DNA of 64,000 nucleotides, taken from the NCBI GenBank assembly GCA_902782945.1, contig CACZOU010000061.1, positions 1 to 64,000 on the forward strand. The letters are read 5' to 3'. The translations under genes and the position numbers were made by a program. Below are positions 15,102-22,845 of this stretch, piece by piece. Numbering within the stretch: the first letter of the stretch is position 1; the number at the start of each line of letters is the position of its first letter. This stretch comes from an uncultured Methanobacteriaceae archaeon (GTDB lineage: Archaea > Methanobacteriota > Methanobacteria > Methanobacteriales > Methanobacteriaceae). The notes below the pieces were generated by a model. The model did no database searches and was not told where the DNA came from. It saw only the letters and a list, made by a program, of their open reading frames with translations.

Positions 15102-18100
15102 CTATTTTTTAAATTTTTTCTCATAATCCTCAATAATCGTCTCTACACGATTTGTGAATGTATGTTCACTCACAACATTTGGATTAACAGGATTTCTATG
15201 TAATGCTTCCTCAATTTTATCCTCTAATTCTTCTTTTTTATCATATATTATAATATCATCACTACTAAATACATCTTCTAATCCTTTAACATGGTCTGTT
15301 ACTATTACAGCACCACAGGCTAATCCATCAAAAATTCTGTTAGATATAAATCCTTTTTCCCGCATGTCCTTCCAATGATCATTTAGTAATACTTTAGTTG
15401 ATGAATAAGCCTTATATAATTCCTCATTGGGTATATATTCATCTACAATATACTTATCATCCAATAATCCTTCCCATTGATGACCGTAAACATCTAAATG
15501 ATATTTTGATGGTAATAAATCATGAAGAATCTTTCTATAAACAAAACGTGCATTACCTACAAATAATAATTCTGTATCATATTTCTCATCGTATTCCCTA
15601 TGGAAACGTGACACATTTGTACACTGTAATAATCCTTCAACATCCACATCAACTAATGACTTAATTTTATCAGCCCAGTAATAAGAAGCAATGTATACCT
15701 GATTATATGAATTAAATTCACCGAAACTCACCATATCAGGATGGGATAAATTCCACATGATATTATAATGTATAGGTTTTGGTTTATATTCATATAAGCC
15801 TCTAAGAACTAATACTATGTCATAAACAGCATCTTTATATTTATCCCAATCATTATAAAACTGTATTTTAGAGATATAGCCCTGTTTATTAAATTCTTTT
15901 TGTAATTGTACTGCAAAGTGATAATCACCCCATCCCATCTTTTCCCAGTTACTAGGAGCAGGTATTTTAATCATTACTTTATCAGAAACAATGAAATTTC
16001 TTAATATGTCCATTAATTCTTTAGCTCTTTGTTTATATGTGTGATTAGATAACACTATTGAACGTAGTTCTGATACTTTTGCTCTTCTTTTATCTGGATT
16101 ATTCAAGTACTCAATAATTAACTGTTCAAGTGATTCTTTTGAATTAAATGTTGGTACCTTATCTCCGAATAATTCTTTCAATCCATGTTTACAGTTACTA
16201 ACAACTAACCTACCACATGCTATAGCATCAAACACCCTATTATTTACCTGTGAAGGTATGTTTCCCTGTTCTGAAGTATCATCTATAACTATTTTTGTTG
16301 AAGCATAAACCCTTGGCATTAGGTCATGTTTAACAAATCCTTTATAGTATTCACTAAGTTTACTATAACCCCATCCCACACCATATATATTGAATTCATA
16401 TGGTAAATCTTCTGGATAAATTACACTTGTTATGTTTTCTTCATGTTTTTCGCTGCTTCCTGCAAAACAATAATCACAGAAATATTCCTCAGCTGGTTCT
16501 ACTTCATCATTATATAAATCAGTGTTCGTTGCTTCCGGGAATAATATTGGACTATATCCTGTATTTTCCATTATATGATGTATTCCTTGACTGTTAGAAG
16601 ACAGTATTATATCAAAAGATTCAAAGAATTCTTGTTTAGTCCATGTTTCAAAGCTATCCAGTATCCATGCTATATTTATCAATAGATTATTATTTGTTTT
16701 TATTTTATTAATATCATAGTCCTCTATGCATGATATTAATACATCTGAGTCTATATTATACCAGTTATCCTTATCTTGTTTTCTTGATAAAAATTCTACT
16801 TTGTATCCTAATTTTTCTAGTTGATTAGATAATCCATTAGCTATGAAGTAATCTCCTTCTACTATATGTTCTCCTCTTTGTGAAACTATGAATGTTATTT
16901 TTAGTTCGTTTTCTGAATAGAATAGCTTTTTATCTAATTTATCTTGTAATAATTGTTTTTTTAAGAAATTATTCCATTTATGTGCATAGTATTTTTTATT
17001 TCTAGAATCCCTATTTATTAGTAGTCCATTGATTGTTTTTTCTATTGATGCAAATTCATAGTGATATGCTACTGCTCTTGATGTGTAATAGTTATGGTAT
17101 CCTTCTTCATTTAATCGTAGACATAAATCAACGGATTCTAGTCCAAAATTAAATTCTTCATCAAATCCTCCAACTTCATTGAATATATCTTTTTTAAGTA
17201 GCATTAATGAACCTGTAACTGCCACCACTTGTCTTATTACATCATCTCCATAAATATACGGTCTTCCATTTCTATAGTTATATGGAATTATTAATCCCTT
17301 GTATTCTTTGAACTTTATTCCTTCATGTTGTATTTTGTAGGATTTATCTGCATTATAGTTAGATGCTGTGGTATCCGGGTATACTAGTCTCGCTCCTACT
17401 GCTCCTGCATCATCTTTTAATCCCACATCCATTAGATGATTTAACCATCCATCTAGTAATTCAATGTCATTATCCATGAATACCAGGTAATCACCTTTTG
17501 CTTGTTTTACTACTTCATTGTATGCCTCTGAGTAACTCTTGTTTAGTTGATTCTTATGTATTCTTATTGGTAATACTTCTGTGTATTTGTCTATTATTTT
17601 TAGTGAGTTATCTACTGAGTCATTATCTATGATTATTATCTCGTAATTTGGGTAATCAGTGAATTCTATTAGGGAGTTTAGTAGTTTTGTTAGGTAATCT
17701 TCTCCATTACGATTTAATATTAATATTGATACGCTTGGTGCATCAGTACCGTAAATAGTATATTCTTTTGATAGAACATCTTCATCAATTAATTCTTTAT
17801 AATTTTGTTTATCAATATCCCTCAAAAAGTACTTACATGTGTTATTTTTATCTTGTCCTACTGTTATATAGTGATATAATGGATTTATTGTAGGATTATC
17901 TAAATTATCATATTTATAAAGATAATAGTTATTGTCAAAGTAGCTTGAAGGATTTTTACCCTCTTTATATCCTCTTGACACATAATGATATGCTGGTGTT
18001 TCAAGACAATATTTTACATCAGGATACTTATTTAAGTAATATTTTTCATCAAACAAGTCTGATTGTTCTACTACTTCTGCCATATGTTCATATTTTTCTT

Positions 18101-19490
18101 TAATCTTATCTTCTTGCTCTATAATTTCTTTTGTTATTATCGGAGAACGTCCCTCTTGTTTTCCTACAGTTAAATAGTTATAATATGGATTTATATCACA
18201 TAATGACTCCGGATATTCACTTGTATAGTATCTTGTATCAAAATGTTCATTTGGATTTTTTCCCTCATCTGCACCAATTGTAACATAATGTTTTATAAGT
18301 TCTTTTGTTGATCCTTTAATGTCCCTATTTTGTTGCATATAATATTCATCATCAAAAGTGTTTGAGTTATATATTGTATTAATACAATCCTCCATATCTT
18401 CATCTGAATATTCCCTATGTGTATTATAATTATTTTTCATTCCAATGTTTGCATAATGTATTAAAGGGTTTATATCTTCATTTTTTAGATATTTTTGCTT
18501 ATAATAATATGTGTTGAACGTCTTTGTAGGATTTAAGTTTAATTTATATCCTTCTTTAAGATAATGCCCGAGAGGGTCAAGACTGGTTTTTTGAAGCTGA
18601 GGATATTGCTTATAATAGTACTTCTCATCAAATAAATCATTTTCATTGATTAATCTTACTGCGCTTTCTATATCCTCCGATGTCATCTTATTAGTTGTTC
18701 GTCTACCCTTATAAATATCATATAATGCGTAATATATCAATGGATTCATATTACTTTTTTTAACATCAGGATAGGAAAGATAATAATCATTATCAAAGGA
18801 TTCTGATGGATTCATTCCCTTTTTATATCCTTCTTTAAGATAATGTTCTAATAAATTACTAGTTTGCTCTGCTACCCACGGATATTTATTGTTATAATAC
18901 TCTTCATCAAATAAATCATTATTCTTGATTACTTTTAAGGCTGTTTTTATATCATCATCTGTTAGTTCATCCTTGGTTTTATGGAGTTTATTATCTATTG
19001 CATCTTCATAAATTATTCCTGTACGTTCTTTGTTTACTAAATTTTCAGTTAATATCTTGTTTTTTTCATTAATTAACTTTATTTTCCTGTTTATATCAAA
19101 ACTTTCCTGTGTTAATTGTCTGTTTAATTCATTGATTGATTTTATATTTTCAGATAACTTTTTACTCTTTGAAACTATTGTTTTATTCTGTAATGTCTTA
19201 TCATATAAAACATGATATACTAGTGGATTAATTTCATTTTCAAGTAATCCCTTATGAGTATTTAGATATTTATCATTATCAAAGAATTTAGATGGATTAG
19301 TACTTTGCTTATAACCAACAAGTAGATAATATTCCAATAGATTGTCTGTCTGTTCGGCTATCTCTGGATAATTTCTTTTATAATACTCCTCGTCAAAGAG
19401 ATTATTCTCTATTATAATTTGCTTTGCTTCTTCAAGCTTAATGCTATCCAGTTCATCCTTAACGTTTTCATATGACATGACATTAACCAT
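15102..19490 (-). CDS. Giant multi-domain glycosyltransferase (five N-terminal repeats, GT2 domain, two GT1/CgeB-like domains)
   Basis: 1462 residues. Five repeats of about 90-95 residues, each starting near L/TFD-E/D-xYY (at about 31, 193, 286, 379 and 479) and followed by HYLxxGYKxGxNPS, FDxxYYL and NPLxHY motifs. A charged helical stretch (about 105-175) separates repeats 1 and 2. A GT2 domain begins near 585 (SVSILILNRNGEDYL) with the metal motif DND in YLVFMDNDIEL and a GGFDEEFNFG acceptor motif. Two GT1-type C-terminal domains follow, marked by FDAIACGRLVV (about 1145) and FDGLACGAVIV (about 1405). The FD-YY repeats also occur in bacterial polysaccharide glycosyltransferases. No membrane segment; probably cytoplasmic, building a cell-surface glycan. 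It lies antisense between SRP54 and pus10. Confidence 0.85.
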   Translation of the reverse strand: MVNVMSYENVKDELDSIKLEEAKQIIIENNLFDEEYYKRNYPEIAEQTDNLLEYYLLVGYKQSTNPSKFFDNDKYLNTHKGLLENEINPLVYHVLYDKTLQNKTIVSKSKKLSENIKSINELNRQLTQESFDINRKIKLINEKNKILTENLVNKERTGIIYEDAIDNKLHKTKDELTDDDIKTALKVIKNNDLFDEEYYNNKYPWVAEQTSNLLEHYLKEGYKKGMNPSESFDNDYYLSYPDVKKSNMNPLIYYALYDIYKGRRTTNKMTSEDIESAVRLINENDLFDEKYYYKQYPQLQKTSLDPLGHYLKEGYKLNLNPTKTFNTYYYKQKYLKNEDINPLIHYANIGMKNNYNTHREYSDEDMEDCINTIYNSNTFDDEYYMQQNRDIKGSTKELIKHYVTIGADEGKNPNEHFDTRYYTSEYPESLCDINPYYNYLTVGKQEGRSPIITKEIIEQEDKIKEKYEHMAEVVEQSDLFDEKYYLNKYPDVKYCLETPAYHYVSRGYKEGKNPSSYFDNNYYLYKYDNLDNPTINPLYHYITVGQDKNNTCKYFLRDIDKQNYKELIDEDVLSKEYTIYGTDAPSVSILILNRNGEDYLTKLLNSLIEFTDYPNYEIIIIDNDSVDNSLKIIDKYTEVLPIRIHKNQLNKSYSEAYNEVVKQAKGDYLVFMDNDIELLDGWLNHLMDVGLKDDAGAVGARLVYPDTTASNYNADKSYKIQHEGIKFKEYKGLIIPYNYRNGRPYIYGDDVIRQVVAVTGSLMLLKKDIFNEVGGFDEEFNFGLESVDLCLRLNEEGYHNYYTSRAVAYHYEFASIEKTINGLLINRDSRNKKYYAHKWNNFLKKQLLQDKLDKKLFYSENELKITFIVSQRGEHIVEGDYFIANGLSNQLEKLGYKVEFLSRKQDKDNWYNIDSDVLISCIEDYDINKIKTNNNLLINIAWILDSFETWTKQEFFESFDIILSSNSQGIHHIMENTGYSPILFPEATNTDLYNDEVEPAEEYFCDYCFAGSSEKHEENITSVIYPEDLPYEFNIYGVGWGYSKLSEYYKGFVKHDLMPRVYASTKIVIDDTSEQGNIPSQVNNRVFDAIACGRLVVSNCKHGLKELFGDKVPTFNSKESLEQLIIEYLNNPDKRRAKVSELRSIVLSNHTYKQRAKELMDILRNFIVSDKVMIKIPAPSNWEKMGWGDYHFAVQLQKEFNKQGYISKIQFYNDWDKYKDAVYDIVLVLRGLYEYKPKPIHYNIMWNLSHPDMVSFGEFNSYNQVYIASYYWADKIKSLVDVDVEGLLQCTNVSRFHREYDEKYDTELLFVGNARFVYRKILHDLLPSKYHLDVYGHQWEGLLDDKYIVDEYIPNEELYKAYSSTKVLLNDHWKDMREKGFISNRIFDGLACGAVIVTDHVKGLEDVFSSDDIIIYDKKEELEDKIEEALHRNPVNPNVVSEHTFTNRVETIIEDYEKKFKK

Positions 19491-19589: not shown

Positions 19590-20810
19590 ATGACTAATAA
19601 AGATAAACCTATAAATAAATTAGATGAGTGTGCTCTTTGTCCACAATGCTTATCAAGAATATATAGAAATCCAGAGGAAAGAAAAAAATCAAAGATACCA
19701 ACTATCACTTCCTCCCAGAAATGTAGTATATGTGGTAATATCCTATTACATGAAGATAAATTATTTAATCTCGTTAACAATAAGATTAAATTATTAAATA
19801 TTGAGTTTAACACGTTTTTAGTAGCTTGCCAGATATCTAATAAAACAATAACTCAAAATGAAAATAGAATAAGAAAGATGACAGGATATCATGGAAATAA
19901 TGATCTTAAACATCAGATAAAACGTGACCTCAATGAGATGATTACGAAGAAATTAGGAAAAACTCTTGATTATAAGAATCCTGAAGTTGTTATAATGGTT
20001 AAGATAAGAAAAAAACCATATAAACATAACCCCTATTATGAACTACGTAATATAAACATATTTATAGATTCTAATCCTCTATTTATAGAAGGAAAATACC
20101 GTAAATTAGTACGTGGAATACCACAAACAAAATGGCCTTGTACAGTATGTAAGGGAAAGGGATGTGAAGCCTGTGATTATACAGGAAAACAATACAAGGA
20201 TACTGTAGAGGATTTAATTGCAAAAGATTTACTTAAAATGACACGTGGAAGCAGCACTAAATTTCACGGATCAGGACGTGAAGATATTGACGTGTTAATG
20301 CTAGGTGAAGGTAGACCTTTTGTTATTGAAGTAAAACATCCATTCAAAAGAGATATTGATCTTAAATTCCTAAGACGTGTTGTTAATAGCCATAGTGATG
20401 GTAAAATAGAGATTAATGACTTAAAATTTGTTAGCAAGGATAGAAGAGCTGCTATTAAGAATAGTTCCGTGGAAAGCTACAAGATATACTCTGCAATAGC
20501 TACCTTTAAGAATGGTGTTACAAGTAAAGATATTGAAGAAATTGAAAAACTTGACGTAATCGAACAAAGAACACCTGTTCGTGTAGAACATAGAAGAGCA
20601 GACCTTATCAGAACCCGTAAAATAAATAGTATTAGTGCTGAACGTATTAATAGTAAACAATTACGTTTAATAATTAATTGTCAGGGTGGATTATATATTA
20701 AAGAATTAATTTCTGGTGATAATGGACGTACACAGCCTAATATATCAAAAATTACTAATAATGAAGCAATATGTAGTCAATTAGACGTTTTAAAGGTACA
20801 TATACCTTAG
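19590..20810 (+). CDS. pus10: tRNA pseudouridine synthase Pus10 (positions 54/55)
   Basis: 406 residues. Two N-terminal CxxC pairs (CALCPQCLSRIY, KCSICGNIL), a THUMP-type RNA-binding middle, a further CxxC group in WPCTVCKGKGCEACDYTG, and the catalytic core with GSGREDIDVLMLGEGRPFV, in which Asp is the nucleophile. It makes pseudouridine 54 and 55 in archaeal tRNA. It starts 100 bases after the divergent glycosyltransferase start and is followed by the 420-bp leader region of rpl21e. Confidence 0.95.
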   Translation: MTNKDKPINKLDECALCPQCLSRIYRNPEERKKSKIPTITSSQKCSICGNILLHEDKLFNLVNNKIKLLNIEFNTFLVACQISNKTITQNENRIRKMTGYHGNNDLKHQIKRDLNEMITKKLGKTLDYKNPEVVIMVKIRKKPYKHNPYYELRNINIFIDSNPLFIEGKYRKLVRGIPQTKWPCTVCKGKGCEACDYTGKQYKDTVEDLIAKDLLKMTRGSSTKFHGSGREDIDVLMLGEGRPFVIEVKHPFKRDIDLKFLRRVVNSHSDGKIEINDLKFVSKDRRAAIKNSSVESYKIYSAIATFKNGVTSKDIEEIEKLDVIEQRTPVRVEHRRADLIRTRKINSISAERINSKQLRLIINCQGGLYIKELISGDNGRTQPNISKITNNEAICSQLDVLKVHIP

Positions 20811-21230
20811 ATATAATCTTACCTTATACTTTTTTTAAAACATGTGCTCTTGAGGGGTTATACTTATAAACTATAAAATTAATATATATTACACAATAAT
20901 AAAACATAGTATACTCTTTAATAGTATAATGATATAATCTATAAAATCAAAACCTAAAACAAATAAATATAGATTAAATCATTAAATAAACAATTAAAAT
21001 AAAAGAGACTATGTAATATAATTAATTTCTTTCATTAGCTCTAAAGAAATTACTGAGAATAATAACTTATTACGGATAATATAAAATCTAGTATTCTAAA
21101 TAAAAAAGAATACACAGATTAAGTATAGTCAAAACCTAAGACTAAAAATAAACCTATAATATCGTGATAAAAACCTAATCACATGTAAAACCTATAAAAT
21201 TATTCTATTAACAAAATCGAGATGATATAG
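20811..21230 (+). promoter_or_regulatory. Hairpin-rich 420-nt leader upstream of rpl21e
   Basis: No open frame. It holds five perfect stem-loops: AATCTATA/TATAGATT (20936-20943/20968-20975, 8 bp), TAATTTCTTT/AAAGAAATTA (21023-21032/21043-21052, 10 bp), GTATTCT/AGAATAC (21091-21097/21107-21113, 7 bp), TAGTC/GACTA (21126-21130/21140-21144) and GTGAT/ATCAC (21164-21168/21178-21182). Three of these loops contain AAAACCTA, and two more AAACCTA copies lie at 21150 and 21187. The ribosome-binding region before ATG 21231 is GAGATGAT. This suggests a structured mRNA leader or a small RNA; the role is inference. Confidence 0.5.
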
Positions 21231-21521
21231 ATGAGAAAATCAAAAGGATTTAAAAGTCGATCAAGATACAAACTTAAAAGAAGTATCAGACCAAAACGAG
21301 CTAACCCAATATCCAGAAAAATACAAGTATTCGAAAAAGGACAAAAAGTACACATAATAGTTGATTCAAGTATCCACAGAGGACAACCTCATCCAAGATT
21401 CCACGGAAAAACTGGAGAAATCGTTGGACAAAAAGGAAAAGCATACCTTGTAGCAATTAAAGATGGTAACAAACCTAAAGAATTAATCGTAAGACCAGAA
21501 CATCTTAAATTACAAGAGTGA
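21231..21521 (+). CDS. rpl21e: Ribosomal protein L21e
   Basis: 96 residues, normal length. Basic N-terminus ([18 protein letters not shown]), then the [20 protein letters not shown] and [16 protein letters not shown] motifs of L21e. A large-subunit protein. First gene of a run with rpoF, rsmA and mtq2, the conserved archaeal order. Its stop overlaps the start region of rpoF. Confidence 0.96.
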
Positions 21522-21523
21522 TT

Positions 21524-21886
21524 ATGATGATTGGAAAGAAAGTCATTGATACCCAACCAGTAACAATATCCGAAGCAAGAGAAATTCTAATGAAAAAAGT
21601 AGAAGAAAAAGCTGACGAGAATAATGAAGTCGATGGCCACCAATTTACATATGAACAGAATTTAACTATTGATTATGTCAATAAGTTTGCACTACTAAGC
21701 GCAGAAGATGCAGCAGAACTAAGAGGTAAATTAGAAGAATACCTTACACCAGTGCAAGCAGTTAAAGTAGTGGATTTAATGCCTGAAGATCTTGATGACC
21801 TCAGATTAATATTCGCAAAAGAAAGAGGAAACTTCGATACTGATACACTAGAAAAAATACTAGATTTACTTGATCAGTACAGGTAA
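21524..21886 (+). CDS. rpoF: RNA polymerase subunit F (Rpb4)
   Basis: 120 residues from ATG 21524 (a GTG at 21518 and ATG 21527 are also possible). It carries the Rpb4 pattern: N-terminal GKKVIDTQPVTISEAREIL, then helices ending in LLDQYR. With RpoE it forms the stalk of the archaeal polymerase. The GAGTGAT that serves as ribosome-binding site overlaps the stop of rpl21e, so the two are translationally coupled. In several methanogens a DUF655 gene lies between rpoF and rsmA; here only 140 bases do. Confidence 0.92.
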   Translation: MMIGKKVIDTQPVTISEAREILMKKVEEKADENNEVDGHQFTYEQNLTIDYVNKFALLSAEDAAELRGKLEEYLTPVQAVKVVDLMPEDLDDLRLIFAKERGNFDTDTLEKILDLLDQYR

Positions 21887-22026
21887 ATTCCTCAACCTTT
21901 TTCCCTACTTAAATTCTTTCAAAAAACAATACCCACCATCAAATAACAAGAAATATCTATAAATAAATATTTTATCTATTTTTTTAAACATTATGAAATT
22001 TAATTTAGATTTTAAGGATAACTAGC

Positions 22027-22845
22027 ATGTTAAACAATACAAAACAAATACTAGACAAATATAACCTCCGATTAGATAAAAATAAGAGTCAAAACTATTT
22101 AATTGATAATAATAAATTAAATTTAATTCTAGAAAATGCTAATATACAGCCAGATGAAACGATACTGGAAATAGGTGCAGGAATAGGAACATTAACAATA
22201 CCTATGGCAAAAAAAGCTGGAAAAGTAATAGCAATAGAAAAAGATTCAAATATAGTAAAAGTTTTGAAACAAAGGATAAAAGATGAAAATATTGAAAATA
22301 TTGAGGTTATAAATGAGGATGCACTGAAAATAGAATATCCTTCATTTGATAAAGTAGTATCAAACTTACCATATCAAATATCATCACCTGTAACATTTAA
22401 ACTACTTAAATATCCTTTTAAAAAGGCTATTCTAATGTATCAATTAGAATTTGCTGAAAGAATGCAGGCAAAGCCTGGGACAAAAGAATATTCCAGATTA
22501 ACTGTTGCATTATATTTCAGGGCAGATATCCATATTATTGATATTGTTCCACCAAATGCATTCATACCACAGCCTAAAGTTAAAAGTGCAATTATTGAAT
22601 TAATACCACAGAATTGTGAAGAACCTACAAAAATATTTGAGGACACAACACGTGCATTATTCCAACATAGAAATAAGAAGGTAAAAAAAGCATTAATACA
22701 ATCCGCTCATGAACTTAAAAGTGATAAAAAAGAGCTTAAGAAGAAGTTAAATGATGTTGACGATGAAATACTCGAAAGAAAAGTATTTACTTTAACACCA
22801 GAAGAAATTTTAGTATTAAGTAAGAAGTTAGAGGCAATATTATGA
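22027..22845 (+). CDS. rsmA: 16S rRNA adenine dimethyltransferase RsmA/KsgA
   Basis: 272 residues. SAM motif I is LEIGAGIGTLT, the catalytic motif IV is NLPYQIS, and FIPQPKVKSAII completes the family pattern. It dimethylates two adjacent adenines in the 3' hairpin of 16S rRNA late in small-subunit assembly. The TGA stop overlaps the ATG of the next gene (ATGA). Confidence 0.96.
   Translation: MLNNTKQILDKYNLRLDKNKSQNYLIDNNKLNLILENANIQPDETILEIGAGIGTLTIPMAKKAGKVIAIEKDSNIVKVLKQRIKDENIENIEVINEDALKIEYPSFDKVVSNLPYQISSPVTFKLLKYPFKKAILMYQLEFAERMQAKPGTKEYSRLTVALYFRADIHIIDIVPPNAFIPQPKVKSAIIELIPQNCEEPTKIFEDTTRALFQHRNKKVKKALIQSAHELKSDKKELKKKLNDVDDEILERKVFTLTPEEILVLSKKLEAIL

Follow-up and report, generated by a model that had tools for sequence, protein, structure and literature searches.

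To our knowledge, archaea have few known, or even predicted, cis-regulatory RNAs. In bacteria, CsrA and TRAP grip several short single-stranded sites, a mode of recognition familiar from bacterial global regulators. The archaeal ribosomal-protein leaders (r-leaders) described by Eckert and Weinberg in 2020 serve eL15 in the Euryarchaeota, S15 in the Halobacteria and Methanomicrobia, and L4 in the Archaeoglobi; such leaders as a rule have a narrow distribution, and one protein may be served by more than one structure (PMC7247131). A ribosomal protein, L7Ae, is also thought to regulate translation by binding kink-turns in archaeal mRNAs (PMC5539422). The protein eL21 is absent from the ligand table of Eckert and Weinberg (PMC7247131), L21 is not mentioned in the main text of Weinberg 2010 or of the 2021 human-microbiome survey, and no leader for eL21 turned up in the main texts of the open-access papers searched. 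The DNA upstream of rpl21e in Methanosphaera looks like such a leader, an undescribed switch that sets the amount of eL21 made.

The Methanosphaera rpl21e leader resembles the leaders of Eckert and Weinberg in being a conserved RNA that always stands before one ribosomal-protein gene, is limited to a lineage and has structures that differ by lineage (PMC7247131), but it differs in its gene (eL21), in its lineage (Methanosphaera) and in carrying a motif repeated across hairpins rather than one structured site. A ribosomal protein acting through archaeal mRNA elements, as for L7Ae (PMC5539422), is likewise the scheme proposed here, although no kink-turn was recognised by eye in the rpl21e leader, where a linear loop motif is what is conserved. 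In design only, the leader also resembles the targets of CsrA/RsmA and TRAP, in which a short motif is repeated in loops or single strands near the ribosome-binding site; unlike those targets, the repeated motif is AAACCUA and not GGA or (G/U)AG, the leader is archaeal and only one gene is served. The repeated-motif design sets the rpl21e leader apart from known single-site leaders.

The window, a stretch of 64,000 nucleotides, belongs to a Methanosphaera genome by comparison with named relatives. Between a pus10-like gene (19590-20810) and rpl21e lies a gap of 420 bases (20811-21230), followed by the open reading frame of rpl21e (21231-21521, + strand; 96 aa), which encodes eL21, a protein common to archaea and eukaryotes. 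Directly after it, from about 21524, comes rpoF (Rpb4), and the list of reading frames gives the order rpl21e, rpoF, a gap and then ksgA; the names pus10, rpoF and ksgA were recognised from sequence and are putative. A family-wide search found homologues of eL21 in 129 of 139 Methanobacteriaceae genomes. The gap between rpoF and ksgA in the window is about 140 gene-free bases (21886-22027), while by eye a DUF655-type gene apparently occupies this place in Methanothermobacter-like loci (L020), so that it has apparently been lost from, or moved in, Methanosphaera. Upstream of the pus10-like gene, on the - strand, 15102-19490 encodes a protein of 1462 aa in which, on inspection, repeated DLFDEEYYxxxYPD-like units are followed by glycosyltransferase-like domains.

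All features of the leader given below are on the + strand. A TATA-like box, TTATAAAC (20864-20871), is part of a conserved TACTTATAAACTAT block that recurs with the same spacing to the first stem (P1) in nearly all Methanosphaera leaders; the box marks the start of the conserved block, about 30 bases 5' of P1. The rpl21e transcript would, judging from this arrangement, start near 20890-20900. An earlier note on this DNA had taken all 420 bases as the leader: this is indeed the length of the gap, but because the TATA-like box opens the conserved block, the transcribed leader is probably about 335 nt long. In several leaders (L009, L010, L011, L012 and L016) the upstream neighbour is a gene other than pus10 or points the other way, and the promoter-like block and leader are retained there; the leader block therefore belongs to rpl21e. 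At the other end, conservation is unbroken up to the rpl21e start codon and includes a ribosome-binding site, GAGATGAT (21219-21226), that varies little or not at all between leaders. The window leader has no T run above three, and so nothing in it suggests an internal terminator. The best explanation of 20890-21230 is that it forms the 5' untranslated leader of an rpl21e-rpoF mRNA and acts as a conserved cis-regulatory RNA.

The earlier note had described five perfect stems of 8, 10, 7, 5 and 5 bp, with AAAACCTA in three of their loops and further copies of AAACCTA downstream. All five stems are present, as are the three loop copies and the extra ones, at 21150 and about 21187-21188; the local stems are real, but two long-range stems, P1 and P4, had been overlooked. 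P1 (ACATAGT/ACTATGT, 20904-20910 with 21008-21014) is the outer stem of the 5' part and continues inward as P2 (CTCTTT/AAAGAG, 20914-20919 with 21002-21007), both in the minimum-free-energy (MFE) and in the centroid fold. P1 encloses a motif-bearing hairpin, U1 (TAATCTATA/TATAGATTA, 20935-20976), whose 8-bp perfect stem (AATCTATA/TATAGATT) brackets a loop at 20944-20967 with AAAACCTA at 20949-20956; relatives have another stem and the same motif. The 10-bp hairpin P3 (TAATTTCTTT/AAAGAAATTA, 21023-21032 with 21043-21052; loop CATTAGCTCT) is found both by comparison and in the centroid.

P4 (AGAATAAT/ATTATTCT, 21056-21063 with 21199-21206) appears in the centroid fold, and its 3' arm position is shared by relatives. 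It closes a 3' domain with four AAACCTA copies, and its 3' arm ends about a dozen bases 5' of the ribosome-binding site. Within P4 lie a 7-bp hairpin (GTATTCT/AGAATAC, 21091-21113), seen in the centroid and matched by related, shifting stems in other species, and P5 (TAGTC/GACTA, 21126-21144), present in several other leaders, with AAAACCTA at 21131-21138 in a loop at 21131-21139; two further leaders keep the P5 stem without the motif. A linear copy, M2 (AAACCTA, 21150-21156), lies between P5 and P6, as it does in most leaders. P6 (GTGAT/ATCAC, 21164-21182) has AAAACCTA at 21170-21177 in a loop at 21169-21177 and an equivalent hairpin in most leaders; just 3' of it is M4, a linear AAAACCTA (21187-21194) that most leaders share, placed about 39-49 nt ahead of the start codon.

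The window leader (20897-21230) folds at -47.1 kcal/mol, compared with -28.6 for dinucleotide shuffles (z = -4.6), and its centroid contains P1, P2, U1, P3, P4, the 7-bp hairpin, P5 and P6, with all five AAACCTA copies unpaired. Taking all leaders, the mean unpaired probability is 0.89 for motif bases and 0.46 for the rest. With 40 shuffles each, z was -2 or lower in 15 of 18 leaders and weak in L004, L007 and L016. The folds are backed by cross-species comparison as well as by local inverted repeats.

All 20 genomes of the genus Methanosphaera have rpl21e, and the leader, with its stems and motif, was found in 18 of 19 species, always before rpl21e (that of one genome, G012, was counted from another contig, L067). 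Stem sequences vary among these close relatives while the loop motif stays. The idea put forward in the earlier note, which a lack of such conservation would have undone, survives this comparison. The leader of the most divergent genome (G016, L019), whose eL21 has 72% identity, has no AAACCTA; placed in the genus, this genome marks the edge of the leader's distribution. One metagenome-assembled genome (G013) has a second rpl21e leader (L087, on G013:C207) that is close to L014's and probably comes from a different strain or species binned together with it, through strain mixture or contamination.

P1 occurs as AAACATAG/CTATGTTT or in a shortened form in nearly all leaders (in L008 by eye). 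In P3 the UAGCUC loop is retained except in two leaders, while the stem changes from ATTTC/GAAAT to TATTC/GAATA. P4 takes the form TAGAATTTA/TAAATTCTA in relatives, where 89.9% of its cells are paired compared with 32-46% with slid partners, and two sequences are altered on both sides; the window species keeps the position of the 3' arm and has a different 5' arm. The stems of the motif-bearing hairpins vary. An equivalent of U1 with AAACCTA in its loop is present in most of the longer leaders, its stem being TCTATA/TATAGA, ATCCTAT/ATAGGAT, TTTTCC/GGAAAA or TTTCTAT/ATAGAAA according to species, and that of P6 is GTGA/TCAC, GACTTG/CAAGTC, TCATGAC/GTCATGA or GTGGCA/TGTCAC. In nearly all of these U1 and P6 hairpins the motif occupies the loop, with L003 (a P6 loop without it) as an exception, and along the leader it is laid out as hairpin, linear, hairpin, linear. 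To us, nothing speaks more strongly for the motif being recognised than these varied stems around a constant loop, a pattern read from the sequences rather than from a formal covariation test. Covariation statistics for the full leader were set aside because MAFFT misaligns the repeats; AT-rich DNA and poorly aligning repeats keep the covariation counts modest. Together, the z-scores, the pairing in P4 and the stems of U1 and P6 describe a conserved structure with compensatory changes, in a consistent place 5' of one ribosomal-protein gene across genomes. Two further pairings were dropped. In one, the UAGCU of the P3 loop would form a pseudoknot with a downstream UAGCU, a partner missing from the window species and from a near relative; in the other, AAACCUA would pair with the ribosome-binding site, where GAGAUGAU lacks AGGU.

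The longer form of the motif, AAAACCTA, is not rare window-wide (6 found, 5.2 expected), with four of the six copies inside the rpl21e leader. In the window leader AAACCTA itself is expected 0.16 times but occurs five times, a number that none of 1000 shuffles reached, and it occurs three to five times per leader in 19 leaders from 18 Methanosphaera species against 0.06-0.26 expected; for any leader, at most 1 of 1000 dinucleotide shuffles attained the observed number. Across 20 genomes, triple clusters of AAACCTA are almost confined to the rpl21e leader, and the ones that the window genome, its sister and G003 have outside it are repeats within long reading frames. Doublets outside the leader are at the level of a reversed-pattern control in 6 genomes, and clusters of AAACCTA or its complement outside the leader, on both strands of the 20 genomes, reach the control level only. 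The near confinement of motif clusters to the rpl21e leader points to control in cis and not to a regulon; a regulon of AAACCTA genes was rejected on these searches of 20 and 6 genomes, hits outside the leader being at control level or in protein repeats. Copies in general do not lie within strong stems (mean stem score no higher than at random positions, p = 0.23), because only about half of them sit in hairpins and the others are linear, a split that is descriptive, the two classes being partly defined by pairing.

Conserved structure, repetition of the motif, its restriction to the rpl21e leader and its position are established here; we infer the ligand, repression and the mode of repression, as well as the transcription start. 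It seems probable, if only just, that 20890-21230 is an r-leader by which eL21 represses its own synthesis, eL21 being proposed as the ligand because its gene is the closest one for a ribosomal protein and the unit encodes no other. P1 would enclose a domain that displays AAACCUA in a hairpin loop, and P4 a second domain, with the AAACCUA hairpins P5 and P6 and adjacent linear copies, that ends just before the ribosome-binding site. When eL21 is in excess over 23S rRNA, free eL21 would bind several of the AAACCUA elements and fix the P4 domain beside the ribosome-binding site, so that initiation of translation would be blocked; when rRNA is in excess, eL21 would go to ribosomes and the rpl21e message would be translated. 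Imitation of the rRNA binding site is frequent in r-leaders, though not required of them; no 23S rRNA was found in the genomes searched. Multiple sites for a small ribosomal protein are unusual, most described r-leaders being single-site, and this multiplicity, together with the modest covariation, the few two-sided changes in P4, the different 5' arm of P4 in the window species, some weak z-scores, the motif-free P6 loop of L003 and the one species that lacks the motif altogether, counts against the eL21 reading. We advance more tentatively, as a possibility short of likely, that the sequences represent an archaeal leader read by multivalent, sequence-specific recognition of single-stranded AAACCUA in exchangeable hairpins and dedicated to one ribosomal-protein gene. 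The rpl21e leader would, within the literature covered, be the first to be described for eL21, and its short repeated motif makes the proposal directly testable with synthetic RNA and one purified protein.

The main rival to the eL21 reading is a second RNA-binding protein. The interval would remain a cis-regulatory RNA, with AAACCUA read by another multi-site protein, either an archaeal RNA-binding protein or a further product of the operon such as Rpb4/7 or KsgA. The three to five copies, shown by turns in hairpins and in linear stretches, would suit such a multivalent reader. A general reader should, however, have further targets, and clusters elsewhere are at control level. For KsgA in particular, the gene lies downstream, and the 16S helix that KsgA recognises contains AACCU, shared with the motif, but the likeness extends to five bases, as expected by chance in rRNA, and mimicry of the KsgA substrate was rejected as a resemblance of those five bases only. 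We regard a reader other than eL21 as unlikely, though worth keeping in mind.

The earlier note had suggested a binding site either for the gene's own ribosomal protein or for a small RNA; a protein-binding leader, possibly eL21's, appears to explain the sequences best, and the small-RNA variant has less support. A separate small RNA made from the interval would agree with its own promoter-like box and independent folding, but the window leader has no long T run to end such a transcript (longest, 3) and conservation is continuous to the start codon. For a small RNA acting in trans by pairing with the AAACCUA copies, clusters of the complement elsewhere are at control level on both strands, and this rules out a trans RNA carrying complementary sites in several copies, an exclusion that does not reach a single-site trans RNA; a small RNA of either kind is improbable. 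A riboswitch, or another RNA sensing a small molecule or ion and governing the rpl21e-rpoF unit, has a slighter chance still. Its length, its conserved stems and its closeness to the ribosome-binding site would fit, whereas conservation rests in a short linear motif that is repeated, with no single compact core, such as aptamers usually have, and only a ribosomal-protein gene is attached. An Rfam scan of the window gave tRNAs only above the gathering threshold, and rpl21e leaders of three genera gave nothing relevant at E up to 1. That the stems are chance and the AT-rich repeat without function is hardly credible: short stems are common in AT-rich DNA, as a control confirmed, and AAAACCTA is at its expected number window-wide, but this reading is contradicted by the comparison, in which motif number, arrangement and stems are conserved in 18 species, and by the folding z-scores.

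Returning to the reading of a protein-binding leader, other Methanobacteriaceae genera also have long and structured rpl21e leaders, yet these are different from that of Methanosphaera. In one Methanobrevibacter clade (L040-L047, L052 and L053) the rpl21e leader has multiple stems, with 14 pairs changed on both sides, an invariant AAACCTA in a hairpin loop (AAACCCTAA in two leaders) and invariant AAACCGAAGGGC segments. The occurrence of AAACCTA in both Methanosphaera and this clade is suggestive only; the same loop sequence in a differently folded leader means that one recognition element may serve unrelated leader folds. Of the three rpl21e leaders from Methanovirga-type genomes (g3), two contain a single AAACCTA. 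In a further Methanobrevibacter clade (g4; L155-L172, L174, L039, L048, L050 and L057) there is a near-invariant hairpin, CTATGTTACTAGTATT...AATACTAGGTNGCTGATAACATAG, with ATGGGC in its loop, written in full as CTATGTTACTAGTATT-ATGGGC-ATACTAGGTNGCTGATAACATAG and followed downstream by ACCCAG, with which the loop probably forms a pseudoknot; many of these leaders have a T run after GGGC. The g4 leader is a strong r-leader candidate in its own right and is undescribed. From the sequences of these differing structured leaders, rpl21e seems to be controlled through its leader throughout the family, the leader itself often being replaced, and frequent replacement fits the view of r-leaders held by Eckert and Weinberg (PMC7247131). 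The several structured leaders seemingly acquired by rpl21e in one methanogen family offer a test case for the repeated solving of one regulatory problem. A third conserved rpl21e leader segment, CCTATTnnGTGATAnCTG, accompanied by a GC-rich hairpin before GGAGG, is present in g15, g21 and g22 (L141, L142, L143 and L154).
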